Below, piece by piece: positions 4,206-43,538 of a stretch of DNA of 45,600 bases. The notes under the pieces were generated by a model, which was not told where the DNA came from, did no database searches, and worked only from the letters and a program-made list of their open reading frames with translations. The translations under genes were made by a program, and so were the position numbers. Every line of letters begins with the position of its first letter. The stretch's first letter is position 1. The stretch is from IMG/VR virus record IMGVR_UViG_3300046691_000114, positions 1-45,600 of that record, one strand, 5' to 3'. This DNA is from a virus.

Positions 4206-4227
4206 CTAAGTGATTGAAAATGCTAGC

Positions 4228-4265
4228 TTTTGCAGACCGGCGCGTAACCATTCCGCCACATGGCC
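4228..4265 (-). other. attP candidate: 5' half of a tRNA-Cys gene
   Basis: Read on the minus strand this is a tRNA-Cys from its first base to the anticodon loop: acceptor GGCCATG, D-arm TGGCGGAATGGTTACGC, anticodon 5' stem CCGGT and loop CTGCAAA. The tRNA match stops there; the 3' stem, T-arm and acceptor are missing. It lies 35 bp downstream of the integrase stop, the usual place for attP. The sequence differs from the phage's own complete tRNA-Cys (13184-13257) in acceptor and anticodon stems, so it probably copies the host gene. Integration site and crossover are inferred. Confidence 0.7.
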
Positions 4266-4299
4266 CCTTCCGAAAGGCCAAGGAATTGCAGAGGGTTAG

Positions 4300-6612: not shown

Positions 6613-7260
6613 GTGGCAAAAGAGCCGTTAATCATCGATCGATTTAGGATCGTTGCTGAGTGTGGCGCTGAGCAATTAGGACACGTTCTAGCTACCCTCG
6701 CCCGGCTGGGTATCACTGACGTTGGGTATGAATTGACAACAGATGTCCACACCTTTGGAAGCAATCAGCCCGCCAAGCGCTTTGAAGTTTCGGGCAATGA
6801 ATTTGCAGCGGCATGGGTGCAGGAACAGAATCAAGCGTTCCGCGCCAAGGACTTAGTAGACCACTTCAACGCCAACGGTCGTAATGGCGCTTCCGCATAT
6901 CCCACGCTGCGAGAAATGTTAGAGCGCAAGACCGTCAGCAAACGTGACGACGGTTTGTATGAGCGAATCGTTCTCCAGATCGCAGCGCCGACAAGCAAGC
7001 CAACGGCTAGCCCTGAGTTGCCGCTAGGCGAGGCGGTACAGGAAGAAAAGAAGCACGACACCACGAATCGCTTTGAGGCTGAGAAGTTCATAGCCAAGCG
7101 TAAGACAGTCACAGCTAAGCAGCTTCGTGAACTGTTCAAGGAGCAGGGGCGCAACGGCCACAGCGCCAGCCCGCTACTCGTCAAGCTGAAAGACGCCGGA
7201 TTGCTCAAGCCAGTTGATGGCGTTCCCGGCAGCTACGAAGTGGTCAAGCAACACGCCTAA
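6613..7260 (+). CDS. putative DNA-binding regulator with two repeated C-terminal domains
   Basis: A GTG at 6613 follows a good Shine-Dalgarno (AGGAG, 7-nt gap). The 215-residue protein contains an internal duplication: residues 76-117 and 166-209 share the pattern AKxLxxxFxxxGRNGxSAxPxLxxL followed by a short beta hairpin ending in Y-E. The helical part plus hairpin looks like a winged-helix unit, so the protein may bind DNA as a tandem reader. The N-terminal 70 residues are a separate alpha/beta domain. As first gene of the plus-strand cluster it is the best candidate for a maintenance repressor, shared with the next gene. I do not recognise the family; function is inferred from context. Confidence 0.65.
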   Translation: MAKEPLIIDRFRIVAECGAEQLGHVLATLARLGITDVGYELTTDVHTFGSNQPAKRFEVSGNEFAAAWVQEQNQAFRAKDLVDHFNANGRNGASAYPTLREMLERKTVSKRDDGLYERIVLQIAAPTSKPTASPELPLGEAVQEEKKHDTTNRFEAEKFIAKRKTVTAKQLRELFKEQGRNGHSASPLLVKLKDAGLLKPVDGVPGSYEVVKQHA

Positions 7261-7294
7261 TCCTTCCCTCTAAAGCCCTGCGGAGAACCCCAAG

Positions 7295-7639
7295 ATGGCA
7301 AAGACGACAACCAAGACATCCGGTCGCATGCGTTTGTATCGATCTTATAACTTTGTCGATAAAGATCCCGGCATCGATAAGATGAGAACAATCGTCCAGG
7401 ACGAATTGGGACGCGGCAAAGGCGTAGCTCAGAAACTCTCTACGCTGTCCAACGTCGGCGCTAGCACCATTGACAACTGGTTCAACGGCAAAACCCGCAG
7501 GCCGCAGCATACCACGATGGCCGCTGCGATGGCTGCGCTAGGCTACCAGTGGACGTTGGTTCAAGAGAAGCCAATCACGGACTATGAGGCCGAGCTTAAG
7601 AAGGCGGCGCGGTGGCATGAGGCGCAGGCTAAGAAATGA
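7295..7639 (+). CDS. helix-turn-helix regulator, repressor candidate
   Basis: The ATG at 7295 has GGAG upstream. This 114-residue protein carries a central helix-turn-helix of lambda-repressor/XRE character: LSTLSNVGASTIDNWFNG, residues about 47-64, followed by KTRRPQHTTMAAAMAALG, the usual third and fourth helix. The N-terminus is basic, and the C-terminus is a charged helix that could dimerise. It lacks an S24 autopeptidase domain, so induction by RecA-type cleavage is unlikely. Together with the tandem-domain gene upstream it probably sets lysogeny. The stop overlaps the next start (AAATGA). Confidence 0.75.
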   Translation: MAKTTTKTSGRMRLYRSYNFVDKDPGIDKMRTIVQDELGRGKGVAQKLSTLSNVGASTIDNWFNGKTRRPQHTTMAAAMAALGYQWTLVQEKPITDYEAELKKAARWHEAQAKK

Positions 7640-7953
7640 AATTCGCTTGGCTGACCAACCCGAGGGTATGGGTCTGGCTAATGGCCGTTCACGCTGCCGT
7701 GGTCGGATCATGCCTTGTGTCCTTATACCTCACTGAGACGTGGGATAATTGGTCGATAGCAAACGCGGCTATTGCCGGGTTCAGCGCAGCCAGCGCCTAC
7801 AATGCCCACTTACACCAGCGGCTCAGCGGTGCATTTCAGTTGATGCATATGGCTTATGAACAGCTCAATAGGGCGTTCGCCAAGCTGCTAGCCGCTAGAG
7901 CTGAGGAGCTAGAGGAGCAGGAACATGGGTGTTCGATTGCGCCTAAATCCTGA
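7636..7953 (+). CDS. membrane protein with C-terminal coiled coil, 105 aa
   Basis: The ATG at 7636 overlaps the stop of the repressor candidate (ATGA). Two hydrophobic stretches, about residues 11-31 (VWVWLMAVHAAVVGSCLVSLY) and 41-56, suggest one or two membrane spans, followed by a helical, Glu-rich tail (LLAARAEELEEQE). A membrane protein made with lysogeny regulators could act in superinfection exclusion; this is speculation from context. Confidence 0.65.
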   Translation: MKFAWLTNPRVWVWLMAVHAAVVGSCLVSLYLTETWDNWSIANAAIAGFSAASAYNAHLHQRLSGAFQLMHMAYEQLNRAFAKLLAARAEELEEQEHGCSIAPKS

Positions 7954-8185
7954 TGACATCAGCGCACTCAACCTCCTAAGGGAGTGGCGCTGTAAGAACG
8001 AGCTGTGTGGCGAGAGGCATAGCGGGCCATCATCGCACGGCGCACCATGGAAGTGGTGTCCGAAATGCGGGGCATCGTCCCGGCGCATCAACGTCGTTGT
8101 GCAGTCTCAGGAAGAAGCCGCCTTCGTAGAGAAGAAGCTACGCGCAAGCGCAGCAGAGATAACCGCCAAGTATCGGGCGGTATAG
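7925..8185 (+). CDS. zinc-ribbon protein, 86 aa
   Basis: The ATG at 7925 lies inside the end of the preceding gene and has GGAGCAGGA upstream. Two Cys pairs, CKNELC (about 23-28) and CPKC (about 45-48), can form a zinc ribbon. The C-terminal half is a charged helix. It is the last gene of the plus-strand cluster and is followed by a terminator. The function is unknown; it could bind nucleic acid. Confidence 0.65.
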   Translation: MGVRLRLNPDDISALNLLREWRCKNELCGERHSGPSSHGAPWKWCPKCGASSRRINVVVQSQEEAAFVEKKLRASAAEITAKYRAV

Positions 8186-8198
8186 GACTCGGTTTCCC

Positions 8199-8244
8199 GG
8201 CTAGGTCGCCTCTAGTCGGGAGCAGAGGCGGGGCGGTGCCTAGC
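8199..8244 (+). other. stable two-part hairpin after the plus-strand cluster
   Basis: GCTAGG (8199-8204) pairs with CCTAGC (8239-8244), and inside it CGCCTCT (8206-8212) pairs with AGAGGCG (8224-8230). No T-run follows. It precedes the terminator at 8265-8312 and may stabilise the 3' end of the transcript. Confidence 0.45.
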
Positions 8245-8264
8245 ACGGTCGCCGCAACGCGGGC

Positions 8265-8312
8265 GGGGCGGATTATGGTTCTGTGAGGGTTCCAGACATC
8301 CGCCCCGTCTTT
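8265..8312 (+). terminator. intrinsic terminator of the plus-strand cluster
   Basis: GGGGCGGAT (8265-8273) pairs perfectly with ATCCGCCCC (8298-8306), followed by GTCTTT on the plus strand. The T-run is short. It lies at the convergence point of the plus-strand regulators and the minus-strand accessory genes. Confidence 0.65.
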
Positions 8313-8623: not shown

Positions 8624-8725
8624 TCCAAATCCTTGTAGATGCACGGTTGCAGATGATTGCCCATCATCAGGCAGCGCGTAACGCTGCGACCGTCGCGCGG
8701 TACAGGAACCGCGCTAGGTTTCGGG

Positions 8726-9488: not shown

Positions 9489-10403
9489 TTAAGCCGCAAG
9501 AGCGGCTTGTTCTTCGTCGTCGGCGGTTACCGCAGTGTGGTCAGCCATCAAGTAGTCAACAGCCTGCTGAGCCTTGCTAGCAGCGGTGAAGATGGCCCGG
9601 CTATCGCTCTTAAGGAGCTTGATCCATGAGGCAATGTAACCGGCATGCCTCAAGTCACCCTCAATCCCAAAGTGTGCGCAAGTGAAAGCCGCGCCTAGCT
9701 CAGCTACCAATTCCTCAGCGGCGTAAGCCTGATCACCAAAGCGCTTACCGAATACCCGGTCACAACGCTTCTTAGCACCAGTCCAATGCACCAGCTCATG
9801 AGCTAGCGTCGCGCTGTAACCGGCTGCATTCTTGAACGCGGCTAGCACTGGCATTTGCACCAGATCATAGCCCGGCGAATAGAATGCCTTGTTGCCACCA
9901 TGCTGAACACGGGCACCACTGCGAGCAACCCATGCGCTGAACTCAGGCGAGGGCGCATCAACAGGCGAGGGCGGTACAGGTTCCAAGTCGTCACGCTTGC
10001 CATAGTATTCAGTAGGCAAGCCGTCACACTGCGATACGTTGAACACAGTGTATTCCTTGAGCATGGGAATTTTCTTGTCCTCGCCATTGGTCTTATCTTT
10101 GACCGTGAGAGGCATATAGAAATAAATCTTGTGGCCGTGTTCGCCTTTGCGAACAGTGCCGCCAGCCATCTTTGCTTGCTGGAACGTTACATAGGCTGGC
10201 ACTTCAAAGCCGGGCAGCATGCCAAGCAACAGGATGTTGATACCCCGATACGGCTTGCGAGTTGAGGCGTTGTAAGGAAGGGCGATAGAGACACCGCCTT
10301 TGATTGAGCGTGACCACGGCTTAACCCATGGTGCGAAACCGTTCTCAAGTTCAGCGACAATCCGGTTAGTGACAGTGGCATAAAGATCGCGGCCAATGGC
10401 CAT
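9489..10403 (-). CDS. ardC: ArdC-like anti-restriction protein with zincin metallopeptidase domain
   Basis: This 304-residue protein has the two-part ArdC layout: an N-terminal ssDNA-binding domain (about 1-135, beginning DLYATVTNRIVAELENG and including PWVKPW and PYRGINILLL), and a C-terminal zincin-like domain with HELVHW (His202, Glu203, His206) and a downstream AAEELVAELG helix (Glu about 231/235) supplying the third ligand. Known ArdC proteins from plasmids protect incoming DNA from type I and II restriction. The ATG at 10403 has GGAGG 7 nt upstream. Placed in the accessory/early block, it would act soon after DNA entry. A structured non-coding segment lies directly upstream. Confidence 0.9.
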   Translation of the reverse strand: MAIGRDLYATVTNRIVAELENGFAPWVKPWSRSIKGGVSIALPYNASTRKPYRGINILLLGMLPGFEVPAYVTFQQAKMAGGTVRKGEHGHKIYFYMPLTVKDKTNGEDKKIPMLKEYTVFNVSQCDGLPTEYYGKRDDLEPVPPSPVDAPSPEFSAWVARSGARVQHGGNKAFYSPGYDLVQMPVLAAFKNAAGYSATLAHELVHWTGAKKRCDRVFGKRFGDQAYAAEELVAELGAAFTCAHFGIEGDLRHAGYIASWIKLLKSDSRAIFTAASKAQQAVDYLMADHTAVTADDEEQAALAA

Positions 10404-10446
10404 GGCAAAGCCTCCAATATTGACAGATCAGGGTCAGGGAATTAGT

Positions 10447-10948
10447 TTGGGAGGTGAGAGGCAGCACGGCTAATGCTGCCCCTCGTCTCTAAGTTGCTAG
10501 ATCAGGTAGAGGGCGAGACTTATTGTTAGGTCTCGCCCTTTCCATTTCCAGCTTAGAGACAGCACGATGCAAGGCATCGATGCCCCTCCCAAGTTGCCAT
10601 CATCCTCGCTTGATGGTTCAGCGTTCCTGCCGTGTTGGCAGGTAGGAAGCCACGCGATGCAATGGCCTCTTATCTGCCAACTCAGCGCAAGCTAGGCGAG
10701 CAATGCGTTAGGGCTTGTTAGCCTCTATGAACCATTGCCAAGCGTTGCTTGCATGAGTTGGTACTAACGATGTCAAACAGCGTGAGAGGCTATGGCGTGT
10801 TGGCAGTGTGTGCCGTGTGAACCCGTAGCAATCTCGTTTCGTGGGTTCATTTATAGTAAGGCTGGCAATCGTTACGCAAGTGCGGGTATTGCATACCAGC
10901 GATTCGCTTATGCATAGCTGTTACGCTCATGCAAGCCTTACGCACTTG
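10447..10948 (-). ncRNA. candidate large structured non-coding RNA (about 500 nt)
   Basis: The 582-bp gap between ardC and the next gene has no open frame of note but is packed with nested complementary segments. TTGGGAGG (10447-10454) pairs with CCTCCCAA (10585-10592) and encloses three arms: GGCAGCA/TGCTGCC (10460-10466/10474-10480), GTCTCTAAG/CTTAGAGAC (10485-10493/10552-10560) capped by GGGCGAGAC/GTCTCGCCC (10511-10519/10530-10538), and GATGC/GCATC (10566-10578). Next come CCATCA/TGATGG (10597-10616) and CCTGCC/GGCAGG (10626-10642). A rod at 10677-10761 has four stacked helices, and TGAACCC/GGGTTCA spans 10818-10849. CAAGTGCG/CGCACTTG (10877-10884/10941-10948) encloses three more hairpins. 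Strand is inferred from the minus-strand neighbours. It resembles in kind the large ornate phage RNAs (GOLLD, ROOL); homology is untested. Confidence 0.6.
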
Positions 10949-10985
10949 AATGTAATTCTCAGATTGGGAAAATTTGACCCGGCGA

Positions 10986-11177
10986 TTAGTTCGCCTTGGT
11001 GAAACCCTTTGGACCGATGACCACGCGCTTATTAGGCCCGCTCAGCTTGGCAATGATGCCAGCTAGTTCGCGCCTTGCGTCCTGCATCGCCTCATCACCG
11101 TTATCGATGCTGACAAGATCACGCATCAGCAGCGTGACGACTAGGAATCGTTCGTCGTCGGTTAGCCGTTCAAGCAT
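10986..11177 (-). CDS. hypothetical protein, 63 aa
   Basis: The product is not recognised. The ATG at 11177 has GAGG upstream. The protein is helical: an acidic N-terminal two-thirds (LERLTDDERFLVVTLLMRDL) and a basic C-terminal tail (KRVVIGPKGFTKAN). It lies just upstream of the structured non-coding region. Confidence 0.6.
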   Translation of the reverse strand: MLERLTDDERFLVVTLLMRDLVSIDNGDEAMQDARRELAGIIAKLSGPNKRVVIGPKGFTKAN

Positions 11178-11512
11178 GGGTTAGCCTCAAAGAAAAAATA
11201 CCCCACAAGACAGACACGGACACTCAGAGCGCCCCGGCTGGCCATCGCTGGCCGCGTTGCGCCCGGCTGGCGTCGTGTTGTGGTGTCGTGGTTGCTACGC
11301 GGTTCTCCACACCTCATCAACTCATTGATATCATTGATGAATGCGGTGATTAGTGCCAACCTTGGCCGATCCGCTGGCCGATGTGCCATCCCAAGGCCCG
11401 CGCCGAGGGCACCGGGGGGATTCTGCGGGGGCCAGTTGGACGCTACCCTCTCAGATTTTTGCTGAAAATCTATCGATGCCTCTAGGAAGGCCTCAGGACT
11501 CTTGTGAGCCAT
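11162..11512 (-). CDS. hypothetical protein, 116 aa
   Basis: The product is not recognised. I chose the ATG at 11512 (GGTGG upstream) over a longer start at 11539; it overlaps the end of the preceding gene by 20 bp. Residues 1-70 look like a genuine helical protein, including LALITAFINDINELM. The last 45 residues are low-complexity and Arg/Pro-rich and may be weakly constrained. The final 16 bp overlap the next gene. Confidence 0.5.
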   Translation of the reverse strand: MAHKSPEAFLEASIDFQQKSERVASNWPPQNPPGALGAGLGMAHRPADRPRLALITAFINDINELMRCGEPRSNHDTTTRRQPGATRPAMASRGALSVRVCLVGYFFFEANPCLNG

Positions 11513-36958: not shown

Positions 36959-37203
36959 TTGACCGTCTCATCCTCGTCGGTCAGCATGTGGTCGAGAACC
37001 TGCCGCAGGTATTCAGCCTGCAACACGGTGATAACGATCACGTCGCCGCCGTTGGTGTCGGGGTGGTGCTGACGAAGGGTGACCGTAGGGCCACGCTCTT
37101 TGAAATGGATTTCTACGTCAGCGTCGCGGCCTGCATCATCGAGGATCGTGACGACAGTATCCGCGCCATGGTGTTCCATGGTGACCATGTGTTGGTCGGT
37201 CAT
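36955..37203 (-). CDS. hypothetical protein, 82 aa
   Basis: The product is not recognised. I chose the ATG at 37203 because it overlaps the stop of the membrane microgene (ATGA) and has GAAGAAG upstream. It is an acidic alpha/beta protein with beta segments (TVVTILDD, ADVEIHFKERGPTVTL), then IVITVLQAEYLRQVLDHML and an acidic end. Confidence 0.6.
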   Translation of the reverse strand: MTDQHMVTMEHHGADTVVTILDDAGRDADVEIHFKERGPTVTLRQHHPDTNGGDVIVITVLQAEYLRQVLDHMLTDEDETVN

Positions 37204-41255: not shown

Positions 41256-42859
41256 TAGAACTCTCCGGTAATAATCGCTTCTTCTGATAGTCGCCCGGTT
41301 GCTAGGTCGTAGTGAAGCAATCCGGCCAACCCGGTTTCTCCTGAGAACCTGTTTTTCAGGACTCGCAGGATCAATTGGTTTGGACTGTCGCCTTGCTGGT
41401 TACGCTCAAGGCCGATCACGATGTCAGAGAGCTGAGCAATCGCGTGTGAGCCGCGTAACTGGCTAAGGGACGTTGAAGCGCCTTCCTCATGTCCGCGCCC
41501 TTCGGGGCGTTTGAGGTGGCTGACAACGTGTAGTGTGATGCCCGTTTCTTGGACGAGGGTTCGCAACAAGGTCATGGCGCGGTCGATCAAACGACGCTCA
41601 TCCATGTCCTCAATCATTCCTGACACCATGATTGAAAGGTGGTCGAGGATGATATGCTTGCAGCCTAGCGCCTTCGCCATGTAGCGAACGCGGCCAAGCA
41701 AGCGGTCTACTTCGGTTGAACCGAAATGGTCATAGAGATAGCAGCGGCCAGAGCCTACGGTTGCCATGTAGGCAGTGCGCAGCTCAGCCTCTAAGACGCC
41801 GTGACGGGTGATATGCAGGGGCTTGTTGATACTGATGCCCATGAGGCCGAAAGCGGTTCGCTCTACGGTCTCCTCCAGCATGATCATGCCAACGGTCTCG
41901 CCGTTGCTAATCAAGTGGTGCGCCAGTTCACGCATGACGGCAGACTTGCCGACACCAGAACCCGCCGTCCAAGTGACTAGCTCAGCCTCGCCCATGCCAT
42001 GGGTTTTTTCGTTCAGGCCAGACCACGGATAGAGAATGCGCGGGCGTTCAGGCTGATTGAACAGCCGATCCCACATTTCATCGCCAGCTAGGACACCATC
42101 AGGACGGAACGTCTTTGCGTTCCAGATGGCGCGGATAACTTCGTCACCCTTGCCCTTGAGCAAGCATTCATTCGGGTCTTTGAACGGCAGCGAAGCGATC
42201 TTCGCCTTACCCGGTGCCAGCAGCTCAGCGCATTCAAGCGCGGCCTGTTGTCCCGGTTCGTCCATATCGAACATGAAAACTACGGTGTCGTAACCGCTGA
42301 GAAATTCCAGCTCTTGCTTGACGTACTTAGCCGCTGACTGAACCCCGTTCGGCGGGGAGATCACTGGCCACTTATCGTCCTGGAGCATTGACACGGTGAG
42401 GGCGTCTATCTCGCCTTCCGTGATAACGATCATCTTGCCTTTACCGGACCACAGCCATTGGCCGTAGAACCGCATGGCTTTCGCATTGCCAATGACTTTG
42501 AATTTCTTGCCCGGCATGCGGACTTTGGCGGCGATCGGTCGTCGTCGTTCATCGAAGTGGTAAGCTAGTTGGCTTCCCCGTTCGGTCGTGCGGTAACCCC
42601 ATTTCTGACAGGTCGCCTCACGTATCTTTCGGTCTGGTAGTGCTTCAATCTCGCCCTGCAATTCTAGGGCGGATTCATCTTCGCTCTTGTCGTCGTTAGC
42701 GAAGGATTGCAGCTCGCTAATAGGCTTGCCGTCTCCTTTCTCCCGATAGGAACACCCAAAGCCAAAGCAATGGGCGTGTCCGTCGCTGTATCTAACTAAG
42801 TTGTCTTTTGATCCGCATCCGGGGCAGTGTTCGCGCCCGATGACGTGGCTTTCACTCAT
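41255..42859 (-). CDS. DNA primase-helicase (T7 gp4-like)
   Basis: A 534-residue bifunctional protein. The N-terminal zinc finger uses Cys12, Cys15, Cys31 and Cys36 (HCPGC...HCFGFGC). The TOPRIM primase core has TEGEIDAL (about 147) and FMFDMDEPG (about 196). The RecA-like hexameric helicase has Walker A AGSGVGKS (about 299-306), a Walker B-like ILDHLSIMV and VVSHLKRPEG. I chose the ATG at 42859 because it overlaps the ligase stop by 8 bp. It primes and unwinds at the replication fork. Confidence 0.95.
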   Translation of the reverse strand: MSESHVIGREHCPGCGSKDNLVRYSDGHAHCFGFGCSYREKGDGKPISELQSFANDDKSEDESALELQGEIEALPDRKIREATCQKWGYRTTERGSQLAYHFDERRRPIAAKVRMPGKKFKVIGNAKAMRFYGQWLWSGKGKMIVITEGEIDALTVSMLQDDKWPVISPPNGVQSAAKYVKQELEFLSGYDTVVFMFDMDEPGQQAALECAELLAPGKAKIASLPFKDPNECLLKGKGDEVIRAIWNAKTFRPDGVLAGDEMWDRLFNQPERPRILYPWSGLNEKTHGMGEAELVTWTAGSGVGKSAVMRELAHHLISNGETVGMIMLEETVERTAFGLMGISINKPLHITRHGVLEAELRTAYMATVGSGRCYLYDHFGSTEVDRLLGRVRYMAKALGCKHIILDHLSIMVSGMIEDMDERRLIDRAMTLLRTLVQETGITLHVVSHLKRPEGRGHEEGASTSLSQLRGSHAIAQLSDIVIGLERNQQGDSPNQLILRVLKNRFSGETGLAGLLHYDLATGRLSEEAIITGEF

Positions 42860-43538
42860 CAGCGATCTTGTCGGGGCGCATGCGAACAAAGCGCGGATGC
42901 CGCATCTGACCATCAGGGGTCAGGTGCATGTATTCGCATTCGACGGTTTGCCCGATCAGCTCATAATTGAGGTATTGCGCCCAAAGATCTTCACGTTCTT
43001 CATCAGAGAACCCAGCGCCAACGGCCCCGCGTTGCGTGATGACAGCGCCAAGGCGGCCAAGGTGTTGGCCTTGTCCTGCGATGGCTCCGGTGATGAGTAG
43101 GTCGATTGTTTCGGCAGGCTTAACTTTGATCCAAGCATCGCCGCTGCGCAGGACTAACCCTTCTTGGCCGTCCTTGATGGCATCTCGCATCTTGCGATAG
43201 ATGAGCGCCGCAGATGGATTGGTGAATACCCCGGCATAGTTGCGCGGGTCAGGGTGGCGGAGTGAGAACAGATGGTCATAGGAGATACGCGGTGTATCGT
43301 CCTTAAGGTGCTGTGTGCGCGTGGCGCGGATAGTGTCGCGGAAACTTCCAACGAACACCTCCACGTCATGTTGTTCGGGCGATAGAGGGGGTGGAATGTT
43401 GTAGAGCGGCTTATCAGCCCGGCTACGCCATTCCTTGCCATTCCAGATCGCCCGTACACCATCACGTTTGATCGTGAACAGCCATGCACCATCAAGCGCT
43501 TTGCCATGCCATGGCCGCGCCTTGATGTAAGTCATCAT
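42852..43538 (-). CDS. ATP-dependent DNA ligase, compact form
   Basis: A 228-residue ligase (T7 gp1.3 has 359). The nucleotidyl-transfer lysine is in FTIKRDGVRAIW (Lys24, motif KxDGxR), followed by DVEVFVG (motif III region), EGLVLRSGD (motif IV) and AWIKVKP (motif V). The distal RHPRFVRMRPDK fits the OB-fold motif VI. It joins nicks using ATP. The ATG at 43538 precedes the primase-helicase gene with an 8-bp overlap. Confidence 0.9.
   Translation of the reverse strand: MMTYIKARPWHGKALDGAWLFTIKRDGVRAIWNGKEWRSRADKPLYNIPPPLSPEQHDVEVFVGSFRDTIRATRTQHLKDDTPRISYDHLFSLRHPDPRNYAGVFTNPSAALIYRKMRDAIKDGQEGLVLRSGDAWIKVKPAETIDLLITGAIAGQGQHLGRLGAVITQRGAVGAGFSDEEREDLWAQYLNYELIGQTVECEYMHLTPDGQMRHPRFVRMRPDKIADE

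Follow-up and report, generated by a model that had tools for sequence, protein, structure and literature searches.

A boxA element and a conserved four-way junction in the putative early leader of an integrase-bearing T7-like phage

The left end of the T7 genome carries the promoters A1–A3, the RNase III site R0.3 and gene 0.3. Large multi-branch RNAs of phages include GOLLD and ROOL, and HK022 put and lambda nut offer an analogy for a phage leader RNA that may modify host RNA polymerase early. The rRNA operon leader combines boxB, boxA and boxC with Nus factors, and in E. coli rRNA antitermination boxA alone is necessary and sufficient (PMC10250234). Hammerhead ribozymes flanking phage early genes, ardA included, are also known (PMC3088659).

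Here we analyse a helix-rich gap in a 45.6-kb virus record (the window, meaning the whole stretch of DNA). The gap occupies the same genome place as the T7 early leader, before an anti-restriction gene, and T7 also has a boxA. It differs from T7 in that its leader, predicted at ~440 nt, would contain a four-way junction (domain A), and in that ArdC stands where T7 has ocr. With the rRNA operon leader it shares a host-type boxA, followed by a hairpin and a GGCAATG segment, in what would be an untranslated structured RNA made by host RNA polymerase; unlike there, the boxA of the window lies in a predicted phage early mRNA leader, with no boxB directly before it. The RNA would be smaller than GOLLD and ROOL and stands in a leader context, and the covariance models of Rfam give no match, so that the kinship with these RNAs raised by the initial annotation was not borne out. 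We put at roughly 60% the probability that the gap is the untranslated 5' leader of an early transcript in an integrase-bearing T7-like alphaproteobacterial phage, and that it combines Nus loading with a 5'-UTR module.

Location and folding of the gap

The two ends of the window are identical over 127 bases, and its minus strand encodes a T7-type RNA polymerase, integrase, DNA polymerase, primase-helicase, portal, capsid, tail proteins, terminase and ArdC. We identify the window as a T7-like (Autographivirales) genome that bears an integrase and is circularly permuted, the record being opened between the RNA polymerase and endonuclease genes. A AGATTTTCAGCAAAAATCTGAGAG motif is found ~1.8 kb downstream of the terminase gene; more than 30 relatives carry the motif downstream of terminase, a strict version of the terminus pattern matched one locus, and the records of RHEph21 and Lo5R7ANS start at it. 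We take the motif as the left genome end and the start of the terminal repeat. The gap is situated 480–1060 nt inward of this motif and upstream of ardC. Like the early leader of T7-like phages, it thus follows the left genome end and precedes the first early genes. It spans 10404–10985 (582 nt) between ardC and a 63-aa ORF, both on the minus strand (Table 1). The ORF is probably a real gene, and family searches with it gave nothing above cut-off.

Table 1. Features of the left genome end and the putative leader in the window
Feature	Position	Strand	Evidence or remark
ardC anti-restriction gene, first after the leader	9489..10403	-	PF08401, PF18818, phrog_7245
ardC Shine-Dalgarno GGAGG	10411..10415	-	sequence
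Domain A, four-way junction, internal loop GCUGGAAA..GAAA / UCUAGC	10445..10594	-	pair probabilities, homologues, covariation
Rod, stacked helices directly after boxA	10675..10763	-	pair probabilities near 1 at its base
Match to boxA-element model R1	10723..10803	-	E=9.1e-5, filters off
boxA GCTGTTTGACA + ATCGTT, rRNA antitermination type	10766..10781	-	sequence match, R1 model
Promoter-like pair TTGCGT-18-TATAAA	10852..10881	-	~71 nt before boxA; sequence
63-aa ORF upstream of the leader	10986..11177	-	codon score 0.275; GAGG before ATG
Putative left genome end motif, T7-type, AGATTTTCAGCAAAAATCTGAGAG + C run	11448..11471	-	same motif in relatives

Some other parts of the window were recorded alongside. 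At 6613–8286 a block of plus-strand genes opposes early transcription; its ORFs at 6613–7260 and 7295–7639 score as coding, and the block gave no family matches beyond one weak HTH_3. A 45-bp stretch between integrase and RNA polymerase (4223–4267), with 97.8% identity to L013, is judged from sequence to be probably the attachment site. In L013 and L032 the relatives of the ligase-like protein at 42852–43538 are instead encoded among the early genes; the gene has therefore moved between phages.

The minus strand from 10980 to 10420 has a folding energy of -227.6 kcal/mol, whereas shuffled sequences give -165.5 +/- 5.7 (z -10.9). Its fold excess of about -60 kcal/mol is the most extreme in a scan of the genome in 540-nt windows (mean -12, sd 12.6), which bears out the initial description of the gap as rich in helices. 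When the stretches from boxA to the first gene are compared, that of the window is the most structured of 18 (z -9.0), with other structured leaders in SP6 (-6.4), L035 (-6.1), RHEph01 (-5.9) and LUZ100 (-5.0). Two of the substructures first described, the 8-bp helix 10447–10454/10585–10592 that encloses three arms and the base of the rod at 10677–10761, have pair probabilities of ~0.8–1.0 in both modelled transcripts. A third, the helix 10877–10884/10941–10948, is complementary but has a pair probability of 0.0 in the minus-strand ensemble; the stretch 10877–10948 overlaps or precedes the promoter-like pair and would therefore lie mostly outside a transcript started there. This TTGCGT-18-TATAAA pair is present as claimed, at 10881–10852 on the minus strand, but it is a weak consensus match and absent from the list of a promoter scan. 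Related boxA elements have promoter-like pairs at a similar place upstream of boxA.

Either strand folds well (z -9.6 against shuffles for the plus strand), because the helices are near-perfect. We assign the RNA to the minus strand, in agreement with the initial annotation, from the gene order, the direction of boxA and the higher sense-strand scores of homologues (39.1 bits sense and 26.0 bits antisense for domain A of L128). The good folding of both strands and the distance of 480–1060 nt from the genome end motif would also suit helices that act as DNA, in terminal-repeat, packaging or replication-origin structures. We regard this as very unlikely, since the unpaired letters of the domain A internal loop are conserved on one strand, domain A homologues score higher on the sense strand, and boxA is a directional RNA signal.

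Similarity searches returned little for the region as a whole. There was no blastn match among phages, plasmids and related loci; the upstream region differs in the ArdC relatives L002–L004; and the closest terminase relatives, L012 and L013 (~81%), are without comparable structure. No homologue was found with a model of the rod (R3), and Rfam at a lax threshold gave weak unrelated matches only. Other structures and repeats were seen in left-end regions elsewhere: in L024 (12208–12650) an ornate left end begins at the terminus itself and contains a very long near-perfect hairpin, with no match to the domain A model, so it was rejected as a homologue; L061 (3649–4169) has a perfect hairpin of ~20 bp (ATGATTGTTGAACCCGCT..AGCGGGTTCAACAATCAT); and L030 (~10890–11020) has tandem repeats of a ACAAAGCTWTCY-like unit.

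boxA in the window and in other phages

The sequence GCTGTTTGACATCGTT (10781–10766, minus strand) is an alphaproteobacterial rRNA-type boxA and matches the sequence 5' of 16S in Microvirga (GCTCTTTGACATTGTT) and Devosia. Searches for 16S in Rhizobium genomes returned nothing, perhaps because the rRNA is masked, so the match to host rRNA boxA rests on two genera. Position 4 is G in the window and C in the gammaproteobacterial consensus GYTCTTTAANA; other phage elements share this G. Those elements also have a boxB directly 5' of boxA, which is absent from the window, where the nearest hairpin, GGCACACACTGCC, stops ~17 nt short. The predicted accessibility of the window boxA is only average. By analogy with rRNA antitermination, NusB/NusE may bind it.

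Model R1, a covariance model built from 14 boxA elements of unrelated phages, matches the element in the window and also L035 (E=3.3e-8; the E-values of models R1 and R2 are rough), while the Devosia rRNA leader scored weakly. A weak R1 match at 37070–37114 on the plus strand was set aside. As the consensus pairs of R1 are invariant, the boxA element shows no covariation and is identified from sequence and position.

Counted from the terminus, boxA recurs between +520 and +710 in L027, L035, L064, L067, L132, RHEph21, Lo5R7ANS and L197. A scan of IMG/VR returned 93 stretches with GCTSTTTGACATCGTT, compared with 15 for the reversed motif. The element common to many of the 93 consists of a promoter-like pair, a GC hairpin, boxA, a second hairpin and GATGATGG, and 14 such elements went into R1. 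Among 20 named Autographivirales, a non-random sample of our own choosing, exact boxA in the early regions had 14 forward occurrences and one in reverse; the reversed motif was never found, and shuffles gave a mean of 0.58. T7, T3, SP6, gh-1, KP32, LUZ100 and Rhizobium phages carry a host-type boxA in their early leaders. This is GCTCTTTAACA in phages of gamma- and betaproteobacteria and the TTTGACA form in those of alphaproteobacteria. In T7 (V01146, L389), GCTCTTTAACAATCTGG lies at 813, between A3 (750) and gene 0.3 (925); perfect enterobacterial rRNA-type boxA sequences, GCTCTTTAACA, are found there and in T3 at 781 (L390), SP6 at 656 and 926 (L391) and LUZ100 at 648 (L387). Forward boxA is absent from HTVC019P, CRP-118, CRP-171, Pasto, phiKMV, VP4, P-SSP7 and ProddE. 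In the openly accessible literature we found no link between boxA and Autographiviridae, and older T7 papers may hold an earlier mention of the T7 boxA.

The element is also found upstream of phage tRNA clusters. Eight of 76 distinct loci (L285, L300, L303, L314, L330, L354, L356 and L359) have tRNAs on the same strand within 1.5 kb downstream, and none has them on the opposite strand.

Domain A and its relatives

A single-sequence model of 10594–10445 (minus strand), searched against 56 sources, gave L128 (E=1.6e-5), RHEph01 (0.0014) and, more weakly, L207 (0.13). The internal-loop pattern added L409, L411, L415, L418, L424 and L425, these later homologues being picked by sequence pattern, and blastn added RHph_I20. 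The remote homologues are located in the left ends of Rhizobium T7-like phages. In seven homologues, with the window excluded, 88.6% of cells pair (68.8% when shuffled) and 35 pairs have changed on both sides (17.1 when shuffled); this covariation vanishes when the partners are slid by 1–3 columns. Because it was fitted to the domain A model, the alignment used is biased in favour of that model. An unfitted alignment made with MAFFT and folded de novo nevertheless recovered this junction, with 13 two-sided pairs. Hardly any variation is seen in the internal loop GCUGGAAA..GAAA / UCUAGC.

The helices of domain A thus covary in related phages, in keeping with the structured RNA first proposed. 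This covariation across remote phages, together with a boxA that recurs in position and exceeds controls, largely refutes the idea that the fold is a by-product of chance or composition and boxA a coincidence. We hold that idea to be highly improbable, even though T7-like left ends often have structured leaders without shared sequence. The further proposal of a new RNA class of about 500 nt stands in part: a conserved, covarying structure exists and no Rfam family matches domain A, but a single free-standing RNA of 500 nt does not emerge from these data.

Domain A could instead, alone or as part of the whole leader, be a free non-coding RNA that acts in trans, made early or in the lysogen, with boxA aiding its synthesis as it does for rRNA. 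The compact, conserved and covarying fold would suit such an RNA, and the frequent position of boxA ahead of phage tRNA clusters means that it can mark non-coding RNA units. This reading is nonetheless unlikely, as there is no terminator after domain A, and domain A stays constantly close to the start of the next early gene, though the genes differ. In the window its 3' end is 42 nt upstream of ardC, and in most relatives it lies some 25–60 nt before an early gene of varying identity. That closeness to ardC would also fit a cis-acting translational switch or attenuator of the next gene, and CCUCC in the closing strand could, judging from its complementarity, pair alternatively with the ardC Shine-Dalgarno GGAGG. 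Since the genes downstream of domain A vary between phages, we think a switch of this kind quite unlikely.

The distance from boxA down to domain A is 187 nt in the window, 204 nt in RHEph01 and 197 nt in L207. In L424 and L409 boxA is more than 600 nt upstream, and in other loci none was seen; several loci have none within 700 nt, so boxA and domain A may work separately.

Relatives of domain A are also close to ribozymes. The Rfam model Hammerhead_II matches 56–58 nt upstream of domain A in L128, L411, L415 and L424 (in L424 just below cut-off), and further Rfam hammerheads lie between early genes of relatives. Searches for the hammerhead core in the early regions checked gave 24 forward and 0 reverse matches, with a background of 2 in 260 kb-strands. 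Domain A itself, unlike these phage ribozymes, is not a hammerhead. In the window leader (10404–10985) none was detected by the Rfam model or as a CUGANGA..GAAA core, and the core search of the window gave one poor core-like match only, near 8670 on the minus strand. In L067 (13283–15777) and L064 (13128–14903) we see 4–5 hammerhead-like cores per early region, all sense, one of them set directly before the first early gene.

A proposed route of early transcription

In the reading that we prefer, an untranslated early leader, host RNA polymerase would start on the minus strand, giving a leader of ~440 nt if the start is near 10845. Once the host-type rRNA boxA is transcribed, NusB/NusE would bind the boxA RNA, and the modified polymerase would resist Rho across the untranslated leader and the early region that follows. 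The early transcript would cross the minus-strand early genes and then, between about 6.6 and 8.0 kb of the window, run antisense to plus-strand genes before reaching integrase and RNA polymerase. Downstream of boxA, the four-way junction RNA would form 42 nt before ardC and mark early mRNAs at their 5' end. Domain A is probably, by analogy, a 5'-UTR module for the processing, stability or translation of early mRNA; this is suggested by its position 56–58 nt after a hammerhead in four relatives and mostly some 25–60 nt ahead of an early gene, a place at which T7 relies on RNase III sites.

A bolder, tentative reading, which we find possible though doubtful, joins two proposals. Domain A would represent a novel class of RNA in T7-like phages and play an active part, for instance as a modifier of RNA polymerase or as a self-cleaving RNA not yet described; in the self-cleaving case, domain A and the hammerheads of relatives would replace RNase III processing. 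The host-matched rRNA boxA would be an early device in general use among many Autographivirales, T7 included, and would enable host polymerase to reach the phage polymerase gene.

In short, the leader suggests an undescribed control of host RNA polymerase and early mRNA by T7-like phages. If our preferred reading is right, these phages take over each host's own rRNA antitermination machinery as infection begins. Domain A covaries strongly, matches no Rfam family and is predicted to stand at the 5' terminus of early mRNAs, close to hammerheads, which makes it a promising place to look for a new RNA function.
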